DNA of 21,058 nucleotides, from IMG/VR virus record IMGVR_UViG_3300034073_000544, positions 1 to 21,058 of that record, one strand, 5' to 3'. Below, piece by piece: positions 1,381 through 6,136 of this stretch. The first letter of the stretch is position 1; each line of letters starts with the position of its first letter. A program made the position numbers and the translations under genes. Source of the stretch: a virus. Below the pieces are notes generated by a model. It searched no databases and was not told the DNA's origin. It saw only the letters and a program-made list of their open reading frames with translations.

Positions 1381-1574
1381 TTGATCCTCGCTTTCAGCAT
1401 GTCATCAGCCATCGCATACGCTGCCGCTGCAATCTCTGGCATTGGCATCGCGGCGTCCATCAATCCTTGCATCGCCTTGGCTGCGAAGTAGTCGCGCAGG
1501 GTCATGCCATCTTGGATGGCCTGGCCGTGCACATCGGAAGGTGCCCAAGTCGGAAAGGCTTGTCCTCCGTCCAT
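1377..1574 (-). CDS. Small phage protein with GMTLRDYFAAKAM motif (65 aa)
   Basis: A 65-residue protein starting MDGGQAFPTW and carrying GMTLRDYFAAKAMQGLMD (23-40), followed by an Ala/Met-rich helix. The GMTLRDYFAAKAM signature recurs in small proteins of unknown function in many proteobacterial phages and prophages. No catalytic or metal-binding residues are evident. The ATG shares one base with the upstream stop (TGATG) and the gene ends in an ATGA overlap with the 135-aa gene, so it is embedded in a translationally coupled operon. An in-frame ATG lies further upstream at 1679, inside the Sak4-like gene; the coupled start is preferred because the added residues would be a frame-shifted copy of that gene. 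Confidence 0.75.
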   Translation of the reverse strand: MDGGQAFPTWAPSDVHGQAIQDGMTLRDYFAAKAMQGLMDAAMPMPEIAAAAYAMADDMLKARIK

Positions 1575-2248
1575 CACTTGCCTCCCATCTTTGCGATGAT
1601 CGCGCCCAGGTCCGGCGCTTCCCAGGCCTCCAGCTTGCCGCTGCGGTCCTTGGCCAGCCAGAGGCCGTCCGAGTCGCACATCAGGGCGCGTTGCGTCACG
1701 CCTTCGCCATCCTTCTCAACCCGCAGCGCCAGCACCTCGTCAAAGAAGTAGGGCAGAGCCTGACCGGTCTTGTTGCCTGGCATTGATGGCGCATACAGCA
1801 CGCGGCCCATCTCGTCCTGCGTCTTTTCCAGTTTTGCGCTCATGTACACATGGCGGCCTGGCAGGTCGCGGAAGGCGCGGATGATGTCGGCCATCTGTTC
1901 TTGCATCGCACCGTAAGCCTGGCGTGGGTCTTTGGTCGCCTTCTTCTCGGCGTTGAGAACCACCTCCGCGATCTCGCTGATGCTGTCCAGCGCCACCGAC
2001 TCAAAGCCTTTGGCATCGTCCGATTGCGTCAGCCAGGTGTAAGCCTCGCGCAGGGTCTCCATGTCGCTGATCTCGATGAATGGCAGGTCCGCGTCCTGGA
2101 TGGACAGCAGACCACCTTCAGCCGAAAGAACGATGGGCTTGGGCAGGGTCTTGACCAGGCTGGTCTTACCCGCACCGGCTTGCCCATACACGAGCACCTT
2201 CACACCGTTGGCAGCCAAGCTGCCGGTCGTTTTTACGTTGATTGCCAT
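1574..2248 (-). CDS. Sak4-like RecA-fold ATPase (phage recombinase, AAA_24 type)
   Basis: A 224-aa single-domain P-loop protein. Walker A is GQAGAGKTSL (22-31) and Walker B is SVALDSISE (84-92). SAKLEKTQDEMGRVLYAP (137-154) and GNKTGQALPYFFDEVLAL (158-175) complete the RecA-core pattern of phage AAA_24/Sak4 proteins. Sak4 proteins are reduced RecA/UvsX-like recombinases that anneal or pair DNA strands, usually with a single-strand-binding partner. It is the first gene of the leftward operon, so it is probably made earliest and most strongly. AAGGAG sits 7 bases before the chosen ATG; an upstream in-frame ATG at 2308 lacks such a site and falls on the predicted promoter -10. An adaptor ATPase without recombinase activity is the main alternative. 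Confidence 0.85.
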   Translation of the reverse strand: MAINVKTTGSLAANGVKVLVYGQAGAGKTSLVKTLPKPIVLSAEGGLLSIQDADLPFIEISDMETLREAYTWLTQSDDAKGFESVALDSISEIAEVVLNAEKKATKDPRQAYGAMQEQMADIIRAFRDLPGRHVYMSAKLEKTQDEMGRVLYAPSMPGNKTGQALPYFFDEVLALRVEKDGEGVTQRALMCDSDGLWLAKDRSGKLEAWEAPDLGAIIAKMGGK

Positions 2249-2302
2249 CAGGCATCTCCTTCGTTGTTGCTGCGCCTTCGGCCAATTCCGTTCGCGCAGT
2301 GG

Positions 2303-2332
2303 TTGCAACTGTACCTGTTTTCCGGGTAAGAT
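2303..2332 (+). promoter_or_regulatory. Candidate rightward promoter for the Cro-like gene
   Basis: TTGCAA (2303-2308), an 18-base spacer and TAAGAT (2327-2332) give four of six matches in each element. It faces the leftward promoter and overlaps it almost completely. Some promoter is needed ahead of the Cro-like gene and this is the best match I find, but it is weak, and a repressor or phage activator may adjust it. Confidence 0.4.
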
Positions 2333-2369: not shown

Positions 2370-2543
2370 ATGAAGACCCAGGAAGCCATCGACTACTATG
2401 GCAGCACCAAGAAGCTGGCAGACGCTCTTGGCATCTGGCCACAGGTCATCTACACATGGGGTGACAAGCCTCCAATGGCCAGGCAGTACGAACTGGAGGT
2501 GAAAACAGAAGGCACGCTTAAAGCAGACAGGGAGGACAAATGA
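2370..2543 (+). CDS. Cro-like HTH transcriptional repressor
   Basis: A 57-aa protein matching the Cro/YdaS pattern: AIDYYGSTKKLADALGIWPQ (6-25), with the helix-turn-helix over about 12-32 and recognition helix PQVIYTWG. It is followed by the usual PPMARQYELEVKTEGTLKA strand-turn that closes the fold. Cro proteins bind as dimers to short palindromes and repress early divergent promoters; a suitable palindrome lies 42 bases upstream. GGAAGGA (2358-2364) is placed 5 bases before the chosen ATG; the in-frame ATG at 2331 has no such site and lies in the promoter. The stop codon overlaps the next start (ATGA). No CI-type partner repressor is visible next to it, unlike in lambda or P22. Confidence 0.85.
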   Translation: MKTQEAIDYYGSTKKLADALGIWPQVIYTWGDKPPMARQYELEVKTEGTLKADREDK

Positions 2544-3013
2544 AGTCATCCAGTCTCTATGTTTTGCAATGTCAGGACTTTTTCAAAGTCGGCATATCGA
2601 AGTTTTTTGACCACAGGTTGAGCACGATTTCAAACGCCACGCCTTTTGATGTTGATGTTGTGCACGTGATTGAATTCGAGTCGCATTCGGACACAAAAAC
2701 AGCAGAAAGGATTGCTCATCAACATCTTTTCGACATGGGCCATCATGCTAAGCTGGAGTGGTTCAAAGGCCCAAAAGGAATTGTGCTTCAGGTGTGCGCA
2801 CAGGCGGCAGAAATTGCCAAGCACAAAGGCAGGCTGAGGAAGTCAACGATAGAAGCCAAGGCCAGGCACATGCTTTCGATCTGCAAGCCTGACATTGTTG
2901 AGGAGTTGACTGGAGTCTCACAAGGTCGAATCATTGAGGTTTTGGGCGGCTCAAAGTTGCAAGAACATGAGTTGCTGAAGATCAACACACTGTGGGGACC
3001 AATCAATGGCTGA
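2540..3013 (+). CDS. GIY-YIG (T5orf172/MUG113-like) nuclease-fold protein with C-terminal HTH
   Basis: A 157-aa protein. The N-terminus fits the GIY-YIG fold of the T5orf172/MUG113 type: LYVLQC (6-11), KVGIS (16-20), conserved Arg in DHRL (R26), NATPFDVDVV (32-41), catalytic Glu in AERIAHQHL (E56), and EWF (73-75). R26 and E56 are the residues expected for metal-dependent DNA cleavage. The C-terminal third contains DIVEELTGVSQGRIIEVLGG, a probable helix-turn-helix. It sits between the regulator and the replicase, overlapping both by a few bases. Its base composition stands out: about 96 G+C in the first 220 bases (roughly 44%), against about 60% nearby, suggesting separate acquisition. Homing, host-DNA attack or anti-phage nuclease roles are all possible; the target is unknown. 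Confidence 0.75.
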   Translation: MKSSSLYVLQCQDFFKVGISKFFDHRLSTISNATPFDVDVVHVIEFESHSDTKTAERIAHQHLFDMGHHAKLEWFKGPKGIVLQVCAQAAEIAKHKGRLRKSTIEAKARHMLSICKPDIVEELTGVSQGRIIEVLGGSKLQEHELLKINTLWGPING

Positions 3014-5060
3014 CTTGTCCCAGGTGCTCGGTGGGCCTTGGTCACCACCGCAAGAGAGGCGCATTGCCCCGCCAGAAGAACAACTCATCGATGCCATCAG
3101 GAATGCCGGGCTGGAGCCACCAGAGCACGTGGTGCTTGACGGCAAGCTGCATCGGTTCCGATCGGGCACCAAGGGCAGCGCCAAGGCAGGAGACAAGTCG
3201 GGCTGGTATGTCGTGTTTGGGGACGGCATCCCGGCTGGCAGGTTCGGATGCTGGCGCATGGGGCTGGAATCGCCTTGGCGTGCCGATGTGGGCAGGCAGT
3301 TTTCACCGGCAGAGGAAATGGCGCACGTGCGGCGCATGGCCGAGGCCAAGGCACTGCGCGATGCGGCCCTGGAGAAGCAGCACGAGGTGGCCGAGACCAC
3401 GGTGGCAGCAATCTGGAGCCAGGCATCGACAGCCAATGCCGAGCACCCATACCTCAAGCGCAAGGGCGTGCAGCCACACGGCGCACGGATCACAGGCGAC
3501 GGTCGGCTGATGCTGCCACTCTTCGGCCAGGACGGCACCTTGTGCTCGCTGCAGTACATCGACAACGAAGGTGGGAAGCTCTACCACCCAGGCGCGGAGG
3601 CCGGTGGGAAGTTTTGGATGGTCGGGACAATGGACGAACCCGGTACCATCTACGTGGCAGAGGGGTTTGCCACAGCGGCCACGATTCACGAGACGACAGG
3701 CAGGCCGTGCATTGTCTCCTACAGCGCCAGCAGCCTTGTCCCGGTGACCGCCAGCCTGCGCGAGATGTACGGCAACGCACAGGACATCGTCATCGTGGCC
3801 GACCACGACAAGCACGGCGTGGGCCAGAAGTATGCCGACCAGGCCAGTGCCAAGTATGGCGTGCGCGTGGTGATGCCTCCGATCGAAGGCATGGATGCGA
3901 ATGATTATGCTCAGGCAGGCCACGACCTGACAAGCCTACTGGTGCAGCAGACTGGCACTGCAGTGATCGACAAGCTGAAGGTGGTCTTCGGTGACCAGCT
4001 TGGCGAGGACTACGAGGCACCAGACGAACTGGTCGAAGGCCTAATGACCATCGGAAGTTCGGTGGTGGTCTACGGCGACAGCAACTCAGGCAAGACCTTC
4101 TGGGCGCTGTCAGTGGCCACGGCGATCGCCACCGGCAGCGACTGCTACGGCCGCAAGACAGATCCAGGCCTGGTGGTCTACCTGGCCAGCGAGGCACCAG
4201 CCAGCATCCGATCGCGCATGCAGGCCATCAAGAAGTTCTACGGCTGCAACCTGGAGAACCTGGCCATGGTGCCGGTTCCGATGAACTTCTACGCTGGTGC
4301 ACAAGACGCCCATGACGTCATCGAGATGGTCCGGGCGATCGAGCAGATCAAAGGCAAGCCAGTGCGCCTGATCATTGGCGACACGCTGGCCAGGATGAGC
4401 GCAGGTGCCAACGAGAACAGCGGCGAGGACATGGGGCCAGTCATGGCCAGATTCGACCAGGTGGCCACTGCCACCGGCGCTGCCATGATGATCATTCACC
4501 ACAACGGCAAGGACGCAGCCAGAGGCGCACGAGGCTGGTCTGGCATCCGTGCCCACATCGACACCGAGATCGAGGTCAGCGAGAAGGACGGCGTGCGATC
4601 GGTCTCGGTGACCAAGCAGCGCGAGTTGCCAAGCAAGGGCGAGACGATCTACTTCCGGCTGGAGGTGATCGAGATGGGCACAACCAAGTTCGGCGGCGCA
4701 GCCACCACCTGCGTGGCCGTTCCAGACGAGGAGGCAAGCACCACAAAACCACACAAAAAACCAACAAAGCACGACGAGAACGTGCGCACGGTCGAGCGTG
4801 CCTGGTGGGCATCTGGCGCTGAAGAGCGTGAGGGTTCACCCTACATCAGCCGGTCGGCGCTGCGCGATCTGCTGGTCAAGGATGGCATGTCGGAGCGCAC
4901 GGCCAAGAACAAAACCGAGGCCAGCAGGCCGGACGGAATCATCGCGCAACTGCTCAACGCAGGCACGCTGGAGACGTTCGAACACGGCTGGATTTTCGTC
5001 AACGAGACGCACGCGAGCGCACTTTTGATGCAGAAAAACGCCCCCAAAAATCGCCCCTAA
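3006..5060 (+). CDS. Bifunctional TOPRIM primase / RepA-like hexameric helicase
   Basis: A 684-aa replication protein. The N-terminal region (41-92, HVVLDGKLHRFRSG...GWYVVFGDG) resembles the leader of phage toprim primases. The TOPRIM domain follows, with VAEGFATA (E219) and IVIVADHDKHG (D266, D268). A RepA/DnaB-type ATPase domain has Walker A GDSNSGKT (357-364), Walker B RLIIGDT (454-460) and a sensor-like IIHHNGKDAARG (496-507). The C-terminus (about 600-665, SRSALRDLLVKDGMSERTAK) looks like a winged helix suited to DNA or origin binding. It would prime and unwind phage DNA. The start overlaps the previous gene by 8 bases. The last codons lie within the iteron-like repeats, placing the gene directly at the presumed origin. 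Close parallels are phage primase-helicases of the P4-alpha/RepA mosaic type. Confidence 0.9.
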   Translation: MADLSQVLGGPWSPPQERRIAPPEEQLIDAIRNAGLEPPEHVVLDGKLHRFRSGTKGSAKAGDKSGWYVVFGDGIPAGRFGCWRMGLESPWRADVGRQFSPAEEMAHVRRMAEAKALRDAALEKQHEVAETTVAAIWSQASTANAEHPYLKRKGVQPHGARITGDGRLMLPLFGQDGTLCSLQYIDNEGGKLYHPGAEAGGKFWMVGTMDEPGTIYVAEGFATAATIHETTGRPCIVSYSASSLVPVTASLREMYGNAQDIVIVADHDKHGVGQKYADQASAKYGVRVVMPPIEGMDANDYAQAGHDLTSLLVQQTGTAVIDKLKVVFGDQLGEDYEAPDELVEGLMTIGSSVVVYGDSNSGKTFWALSVATAIATGSDCYGRKTDPGLVVYLASEAPASIRSRMQAIKKFYGCNLENLAMVPVPMNFYAGAQDAHDVIEMVRAIEQIKGKPVRLIIGDTLARMSAGANENSGEDMGPVMARFDQVATATGAAMMIIHHNGKDAARGARGWSGIRAHIDTEIEVSEKDGVRSVSVTKQRELPSKGETIYFRLEVIEMGTTKFGGAATTCVAVPDEEASTTKPHKKPTKHDENVRTVERAWWASGAEEREGSPYISRSALRDLLVKDGMSERTAKNKTEASRPDGIIAQLLNAGTLETFEHGWIFVNETHASALLMQKNAPKNRP

Positions 5061-5163
5061 ACGCCCCTGACCGCCCCTAGGGGTTTTTAGGGGTTAGGGG
5101 CAAAAGCCCGGAAAAACGCCCCGCCCCGCCCCTAAAACGTATACGTTAGGGGCAGGTAGGGGC
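5052..5163. repeat. Iteron-like GCCCCTAA/TTAGGGGC repeat cluster
   Basis: Forward copies of CGCCCCTRA or close variants begin at 5052, 5062 and 5072, exactly 10 bases apart, and again at 5127; degenerate copies start at 5039 and 5117. Inverted copies lie at 5087-5093, 5094-5101, 5146-5153 and 5156-5163 (the last with one change). A 10-base period puts the forward sites on one face of the helix, as seen for iterons bound by replication initiators. Confidence 0.8.
5128..5153. repeat. 26-bp palindrome built from two inverted iterons
   Basis: GCCCCTAA at the left arm and TTAGGGGC at the right arm enclose a central ACGTATACGT core. The whole is a palindrome apart from two extra A bases in the left arm. 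The A/T-containing alternating core could be a dimer binding site or a cruciform. Confidence 0.75.
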
Positions 5164-5190
5164 ACCGGGATGCGGAAAAACAGGGAAAAG

Positions 5191-5199
5191 TTATCCACA
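5191..5199 (+). promoter_or_regulatory. Consensus DnaA box
   Basis: TTATCCACA is an exact match to the strict bacterial DnaA box consensus. It lies 28 bases after the last iteron-like repeat and 21 bases before the next start codon. It suggests that host DnaA helps open the phage origin. One chance match in a phage genome is possible, but the position next to the repeats argues against it. Confidence 0.65.
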
Positions 5200-5220
5200 G
5201 GAAAGTTAGGAAGCACTGAC

Positions 5221-5502
5221 ATGACACAAACCAACGTGAACGAGATGCTGACCGGGCGCGAGAAGCGTTACGGTAGCTTCACCAACCACGCCAGCATCAG
5301 CCAGGCACTCAAGGCAGTGATGCTGGAACGGTCTGGATGGGATGTGCTGGCCACAGATCAAAAAGAAGCCCTGGAGATGATCCAGCACAAGGTCGCCCGC
5401 ATCCTCAACGGCGATCCGACCTATGCGGACAACTGGATCGATATCGCTGGCTACGCCATCCTGGTGGCGAACCGGCTCGAAAAAGAGGACAATGCAGCAT
5501 GA
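5221..5502 (+). CDS. DUF6378-family phage protein
   Basis: A 93-aa protein whose core matches DUF6378: REKRYGSFTNHASISQALK (10-28), WDVLATDQKEALEMIQHKVA (38-57), then RILNGDPTYADNWIDIAGYA (58-77). The helical, Asp/Glu-rich pattern, especially YADNWIDIAGY, resembles all-alpha nucleotide-pyrophosphohydrolase-like proteins (MazG-type). This is an impression, since the family is officially uncharacterised. It sits just downstream of the replicase and candidate origin, which would suit a nucleotide-pool or replication-linked role. AGGAAG lies 7 bases before the chosen ATG; an earlier in-frame ATG at 5170 would place the DnaA box inside the coding region and lacks a site. The stop overlaps the next start as ATGA. 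Confidence 0.8.
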   Translation: MTQTNVNEMLTGREKRYGSFTNHASISQALKAVMLERSGWDVLATDQKEALEMIQHKVARILNGDPTYADNWIDIAGYAILVANRLEKEDNAA

Positions 5503-5624
5503 CCACAATTTCACACAAAACCAACCTGATCGGCACGATGATGATCGGTGTGGTGATCGGAATGAACGGCTGGTGGATGGCTGCCGCAGCATTGGCACTG
5601 GCGATTGCCTGGAGGGGCGAATGA
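5499..5624 (+). CDS. Small single-span membrane protein (41 aa)
   Basis: A 41-residue frame coupled at both ends (ATGA overlap before, TGATG overlap after). A short polar N-terminus, MTTISHKTN, is followed by hydrophobic residues from about 10 to 38 with a WW pair (24-25), and then RGE at the end. One long or two short transmembrane segments around the GMNGWW turn are possible. No family is recognised. Its place between early genes and TerS could suit a holin or membrane-tethering function, but it is shorter than most holins and no endolysin gene is adjacent. The existence of the gene rests on the tight coupling and its hydrophobic pattern. Confidence 0.6.
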   Translation: MTTISHKTNLIGTMMIGVVIGMNGWWMAAAALALAIAWRGE

Positions 5625-6136
5625 TGGTTACCAAGAAGCCAAAGAAAGTAGGTCGTCCTCCTGAAGCAGTGCCGTCCGACAAGGCTGATGAAATCTGTGC
5701 CTGGATTTCCCAAGGAAAAACGCTGCGCGAATGGTGCAGAGACAACAAAATCCACTACTCGACTGTGTATCTGTGGATGGAGAAAGACCAGGAGTTCGCT
5801 CAACGCTTCGCGCGCGCGCGTGACATTGGCGCTGATTGCATTGCCGACGAGACGCTGGAGATCATCGACACGCAACCGGACATGGCGGTCACGACCAGCG
5901 AGAACAGTTCAAGTGAGCGCATTGACTCAGCCCACGTGGCGTGGCTGAAGAATCGAGCAGAACAACGCATGAAGCTGTTGGCTAAGTGGAACCCGAAAAA
6001 GTATGGCGACCGGCTGGCGCTGGCTGGCGACAAGGAAAACCCGTTGGAGGTAAAACAGACGATTGATGCCAGCAAGCTGTCGACGGATGTGCTGGCGCAG
6101 ATCATGGCGGCGAAAGATTTATCACAACAGGAGTAA
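5624..6136 (+). CDS. terS: Terminase small subunit (Sf6 gp1-like)
   Basis: A 170-aa protein with a basic N-terminus (KKPKKVGRPPEAVP) and a helix-turn-helix over about 20-52 (ADEICAWISQGKTLREWCRD, then STVYLWMEKD). Next comes FAQRFARARDIGADCIADET (58-77), a characteristic stretch of Sf6-type small terminases, a central oligomerisation region, and the KWNPKKYGDR segment (121-130). The small subunit forms a ring that recognises the packaging start site and regulates the large subunit. GGAGGGG lies upstream and the start shares one base with the preceding stop. TerL follows after one interposed gene. The pac site often lies inside or near terS in P22-like phages but I cannot identify it here. Confidence 0.88.
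   Translation: MVTKKPKKVGRPPEAVPSDKADEICAWISQGKTLREWCRDNKIHYSTVYLWMEKDQEFAQRFARARDIGADCIADETLEIIDTQPDMAVTTSENSSSERIDSAHVAWLKNRAEQRMKLLAKWNPKKYGDRLALAGDKENPLEVKQTIDASKLSTDVLAQIMAAKDLSQQE

Follow-up and report, generated by a model that had tools for sequence, protein, structure and literature searches.

In SaPI/PICI elements, rep is followed immediately on its 3' side by the replication origin, whose iterons are read by the C-terminus of the helicase (PMC7581432, PMC6092414). This origin layout has been reported as unique to PICIs. Plasmid pRN1 requires a DNA stem-loop 3' of its replication gene, and such a stem-loop has been proposed for Bordetella phage BIP-1 (PMC4234260). Here we describe an array of short repeats at the 3' end of a replicase gene in a 21,058-base stretch of an IMG/VR virus record, hereafter the window. 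Comparison with relatives indicates that the array is very probably a phage replication origin, a cis-acting replicator directly 3' of its initiator gene, for which the replicase would be its own origin binder. We found no description of such a phage replicator in the open-access literature that was searched.

Results

The replicase and the array behind it

The replicase gene (3006..5060, plus strand) encodes a protein of 684 aa, in which Pfam places a Toprim_3 primase domain at residues 215-304 and a RepA-like AAA_25 helicase domain at residues 326-504. By PDB profile match, RSF1010 RepA (1g8y) is the only solved relative of the AAA_25 domain (E 2e-15). The protein carries an EGFATA motif, the P4 alpha family having a Toprim motif of the EGYATA type. 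Its C-terminal domain (residues ~588-677) has no Pfam name and is predicted from AlphaFold2 models to be a winged-helix-like DNA-binding domain. With high confidence there, the models give a helix, a strand, a helix, a helix (630-637), a helix (645-651), a two-strand wing, and a final helix. PDB neighbours of the C-terminal model in Foldseek are mostly winged-helix DNA-binding proteins, all at weak scores (E > 0.02), and a PDB sequence search with the C-terminal profile gave no significant match. Weak matches to RepA_N of Pfam were seen in 12 of 109 family members (best E 0.0021), with none in the window protein nor in the RepA_N search of its own record.

Ten GCCCC cores, of the repeat form GCCCC(T)(A/G), lie at 5040-5163 in both orientations, seven on the plus strand (5040, 5053, 5063, 5073, 5118, 5123, and 5128) and three on the minus strand (5097-5101, 5149-5153, and 5159-5163). 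The copies at 5053, 5063, and 5073 follow one another in exact 10 bp steps. The array starts inside the end of the replicase gene, and the stop codon TAA (5058-5060) falls within the repeat copy at 5053-5060. A preliminary description of this DNA had reported at least eight copies of one motif in both orientations within 125 bases, three forward copies exactly 10 bases apart, and repeats beginning in the end of the replicase gene, all of which we find as described. Allowing at most one mismatch, GCCCCTAA has 9 matches within 5040-5163 and just 2 in the remaining 20.9 kb of the window. Eight copies of one 6-mer within 5001-5200 appeared in 2 of 500 dinucleotide shuffles, and six copies of one 7-mer per 125 bp appeared in 4 of 60 shuffles when the whole GC-rich window was searched. 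Because the raw copy number is no more than moderately improbable in so GC-rich a window, our case is built on conservation and not on copy number.

The cores fall into two iteron sets. The left set (5040..5101) overlaps the replicase stop codon and consists of four GCCCC(T)A copies on the plus strand, at the first four positions given above, and inverted copies on the minus strand at 5087-5094 (degenerate) and 5094-5101. The right set (5118..5163) has its three GCCCC copies on the plus strand and GCCCCTA at 5147-5153 and 5157-5163 on the minus strand, as inverted arms. Between the two sets lies the A-rich spacer AAAAGCCCGGAAAAAC (5102..5117), a possible melting region. The CCCGG within it is the left arm of an outer stem that covaries in relatives. 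The next gene, assigned to DUF6378 by Pfam (5221..5502, plus strand; ORF from 5170 or 5221), is placed outside the origin because unrelated genes take its place in relatives.

Upstream, a small P22_Cro-like regulator (2370-2543) stands between the replicase and the divergent genes for recombination (Sak4-like, 1574-2308, minus strand). It is conserved in several relatives and is YdaS-like in an Alteromonas phage. A T5orf172/MUG113 (GIY-YIG-like) gene (2540-3013) sits between cro and the replicase; the named relatives have no such gene here.

Conservation of the array in relatives

Viral contig scans yielded several hundred related loci and a genome scan 80 more; tblastn added named phages. An HMM of the C-terminal domain was used to extract 308 non-redundant viral downstream regions, and an array was called where a stretch of 270 bp had at least 5 occurrences of one GGNNN word, a number exceeding that in 98% of dinucleotide shuffles. 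Such an array lies directly behind the replicase stop in 249 of the 308 loci. All 249 have repeats in both orientations, the commonest iteron spacings are 10, 9, and 8 bp, and the first iteron is at most 15 nt from the stop codon in 191. The spacer is richer in AT than the array in 198 of 248 cases (0.62 vs 0.38 in the GGGGC class), a difference that is weak in some classes. Each of nine relatives of 37-40 kb has the array as the sole such cluster in its genome, and the named phages 1N2-2, XX1924, PB15, and CGphi29 have arrays with motifs unlike that of the window. The proposal of an iteron-type origin beside a Toprim primase-helicase, made from the window by itself, is strongly supported by this conservation; what it missed is that the motif is lineage-specific, that the right half holds a covarying stem-loop, and that there is a parallel in P4 crr and the SaPI/PICI origins.

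About 45-59 loci are without an array within 350 nt, and mostly have divergent helices such as SNAGSRRNLIDG. Some loci outside the 249 carry arrays of other words, namely CGTAAC, CGCAAC, and CGATACA; given these classes, GG is not quite a universal repeat core. In one group (L330, L324, L331, L349, and similar), whose helices include SNAGSRRNLIDG and TKDSLRAQIPAD, the C-terminus is homologous and no array lies within 350 nt; its origin must be elsewhere or of another kind. Five loci with TTAGGGGC arrays (L016, L026, L265, L286, and L023) have a different right half, with a long CCCCTTTTAGG hairpin and no DnaA box, which apparently arose by recombination behind the left iteron set. The module is also found in a few bacterial MAG contigs (L455-L462; Paenalcaligenes, Comamonadaceae, Methylomonas, and others), several of them with arrays, which is a hint that the hosts are among the beta- and gammaproteobacteria.

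In one locus (L087, 2122-4014), the same C-terminal reader domain and RepA-like AAA_25 helicase are fused to an archaeo-eukaryotic Prim-Pol/PriCT_1 and not to Toprim. TGGGACA arrays are found in this locus and in its relatives L174, L175, and L397-L442, the Prim-Pol fusion being shown for L087. Because this primase stands in the place of Toprim, the primase type appears exchangeable while reader and array are retained.

Stem-loop and DnaA box

Within the right set, GCCCCTAA-AACGTATACGTT-AGGGGC (5128..5153) makes up the 26-bp near-palindrome of inverted copies that had been noted before, and its stem letters covary in relatives (ACCCTATAGGGT, AGCGTATACGCT, CACCTATAGGTG, and others). This half of the array could form an extended stem-loop (5106..5172), in which an outer stem, GCCCGG/CCGGGaTGC, surrounds the iteron arms and the inner hairpin. 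Compensatory changes in the outer stem were found in 18 distinct relatives, and none of 5000 permutations matched the observed pairing. Covariation is also seen in the inner palindrome around TATA (0 of 20000 permutations). In the TTAGGGGC class, the non-iteron arms flanking the right half stay complementary, with the arm pairs CCCGG/CCGGG, CCCGTT/AACGGG, CCAGTT/AACTGG, CCCATT/AATGGG, ATCCCTC/GAGGGAT, AATCAACAA/TTGTTGATT, and AAATCCAC/GTGGATTT. The mean pairing score of the outer stem is 6.3 for own arms and 2.3 for swapped arms. For the window sequence, the lowest-energy fold of the single strand includes the inner stems, with a local hairpin preferred over the outer stem. Similar hairpins centred on TATA or TTTA occur in most other motif classes.

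The strict DnaA box said to follow the repeats is present as TTATCCACA (5191..5199, plus strand), the sole TTWTNCACA in the window. Such a box occurs in 118 of the 249 arrays vs 3 in a reversed-sequence control, and the CGGTAAC and CGGAAC groups often have two or more. It is missing from more than half of the 249 arrays and from several whole classes. DnaA is probably a helper in some lineages, and optional at most. Cumulative GC skew, which had been suggested as a check on the origin, reaches its minimum close to the array in only about 4 of the 9 near-full relatives; it is confounded by divergent transcription and did not help to place the origin.

The repeat word switches with replicase residues 628-647

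Across lineages, the position of the array is constant and the word is not. We count about 20 repeat kinds, among them TTAGGGGC (the group of the window), TTAGGGGG, TTAGGGTCA, TTAGGTGA, TGGGACA, TGGACAA, CGGTAAC, CGGAAC, CGGTAC, CGGACC, CGGTTT, and TGGTTCA. Within one array every copy switches together, which would be expected from a single binding protein changing its specificity.

In a column test, residue difference was compared with motif difference for pairs with similar C-termini over 517 columns. Residue 635 ranks first of the 517 and residue 641 second, and the test no longer has a clear leader without the CGGTAA/CGGAAC and GGGGC classes. Because omitting these largest classes weakens the single-column ranks, a second, sliding-window test was used. 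The motif of each of 137 representatives, picked blind to motif, was predicted from its nearest distant relative (C-terminal identity <60%) over 14 alignment columns. Prediction was right in 59-62% for windows over residues 628-647; random partners gave 10%, and windows away from this peak all gave at most 36%. Linkage between the array and the gene end was considered as the cause of the covariation and rejected, since windows starting at 647-665, physically closest to the array, have almost no predictive power (0.09-0.19 right). Linkage or shared ancestry alone should not yield a peak at 628-647.

Two natural pairs narrow the difference further. Over 85 C-terminal residues, L064 and L068 show just three differences (Q635V, S641A, and P642T), with CGGTAAC vs CGGAAC repeats. 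L167 and L457 share the same helix and differ at 641-642 (nine domain differences in all), with CGGTAC-type vs CGGACC repeats. The column test, these contrast pairs, the sliding-window prediction, and the structural model converge on the codons of residues 627-647 (4884..4946, plus strand), which would encode a putative recognition helix (SERTAKNKT, 629-637) and the following loop. Taken together, the covariation strongly supports the view that the C-terminus of the replicase reads the repeat, with residues 628-647, and not the remaining protein, tracking the motif. The winged-helix-like C-terminal part had been named a candidate binder in the preliminary description, and the prediction of motif change from residues 628-647 speaks for that choice.

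Other functions of the array

An array bound by the replicase might serve mainly as an operator, through which the replicase autoregulates replication or turns on the late operon downstream. Such an operator should covary with the replicase helix in the same way, and the array does sit between the replicase and the terminase/portal operon. However, it stays in place while the downstream genes vary widely among relatives, and promoter-like or terminator-like elements were looked for at the array and none was found. An array of 100+ bp with an A-rich spacer, DnaA boxes, and a covarying stem-loop also exceeds what an operator needs, and we find this function unlikely.

Terminase sites commonly lie near terS, and in the window the TerS gene (5591-6136) begins about 430 bp downstream of the array. 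A packaging site (pac/cos) read by the small terminase would fit this arrangement, but not that of relatives: the array remains at the replicase stop in CGphi29, where the terminase is ~2 kb off, and in XX1924 and PB15, which have no annotated terminase within 3 kb. We rejected a packaging site on this synteny, and with a motif that follows replicase residues 628-647 it is very improbable.

An equally improbable reading takes the repeats for a terminator or attenuator, a structured RNA in the 3' end of the replicase mRNA, and not for a DNA site. As RNA, the strand forms a better fold than its shuffled versions do (z -3.0), and the stems covary, but the site has no T-run and no Rfam match, and a search for a terminator, promoter, or Rfam element at the array ended in rejection of all three. 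Moreover, an RNA hairpin would not need an 8-bp motif in both orientations that switches together with a protein helix.

Binding of the array by the Cro-like repressor of the upstream gene (2370-2543), a conserved DNA-binding protein of the P22_Cro family, is extremely unlikely and was rejected on a small sample, since no motif copy lies near the cro/sak4 divergent promoter region and, at the only 15 testable loci, the Cro sequence predicts the motif at 0.02-0.13 vs 0.44 for the replicase helix.

Discussion

If the array is a replication origin, the following sequence of events can be proposed. The C-terminal winged-helix domain would bind the 8-bp iterons, in two sets around the A-rich spacer and the palindromic stem-loop, with a specificity indicated by covariation. 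By its domain content and by analogy with P4, SaPI, and RSF1010, iteron binding would load the RepA-like helicase ring at the A-rich spacer or the stem-loop, and the fused Toprim primase would prime the exposed single strands. A polymerase would presumably follow. Host DnaA may assist at the adjoining box in some lineages, a role suggested by the enrichment of the box. Since the repeat and its putative recognition helix change in concert, the outcome should be many origin specificities that are incompatible with one another.

We think it likely that the window represents a class of replicators widespread in tailed phages. In this class, a single protein that joins a Toprim or AEP primase to a RepA-like helicase and a winged helix would read iterons behind its own gene by means of a modular recognition code of 14-20 residues, switched among about 20 DNA specificities. 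If true, the origin sequence would be predictable from the protein, and phage incompatibility groups could be read from genomes. To our knowledge, the origins of most lytic and uncultured phages are not known. Here sequence by itself could place an origin in hundreds of phages, assign its putative reader down to one helix, and predict the specificity of that reader. The natural switches, one of them between two DNA-binding domains with three residue differences, offer a dataset on protein-DNA recognition and on how origin incompatibility evolves. The PICI origin layout would also be extended to phages, with a different helicase class.

Several known systems share parts of this arrangement. As in SaPI/PICI, a short-iteron origin lies directly 3' of an initiator-helicase gene whose C-terminal domain sets specificity (here as read from covariation), two iteron sets flank an AT-rich region, and the primase is fused or adjacent. 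Unlike SaPI/PICI, the helicase here is AAA_25 RepA-like (RecA fold) and not a DUF927 or D5-type initiator helicase, the genomes are those of tailed phages and not of satellites, and a covarying stem-loop and a DnaA box are added. P4 alpha (NC_001609; discussed in PMC4234260) is likewise a single Toprim_3 primase-helicase protein with a C-terminal winged helix, and directly 3' of its gene lies crr, whose 8-bp repeats run in both orientations. It differs in having a zinc ribbon and, where AAA_25 is found here, a D5-type (SF3) helicase. P4 also has a separate ori about 4.5 kb away, whereas each of nine relatives of the window has one cluster. C-terminal homology to P4 alpha was not detectable (hhalign probability 0.2%).

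RSF1010 has a homologous RepA helicase core (1g8y) and, by the account in the discussion of PMC4234260, combines iterons and stem-loops in one origin, oriV. In that account, helicase, primase, and iteron binding are divided among the three proteins RepA, RepB', and RepC, in contrast to the one protein here. The pRN1 and BIP-1 origins resemble the present one in a stem-loop 3' of the replication gene that is kept in structure but not in sequence, and in a C-terminal winged helix; pRN1 differs in having no iterons and an archaeo-eukaryotic primase with an SF3 helicase (PMC4234260). By helicase class or C-terminal homology, the window replicase is outside both the SaPI/PICI and the P4 families. 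By analogy, the best reading is of a self-contained replicator that would work as P4 crr and the SaPI/PICI origins do, with a different class of helicase.
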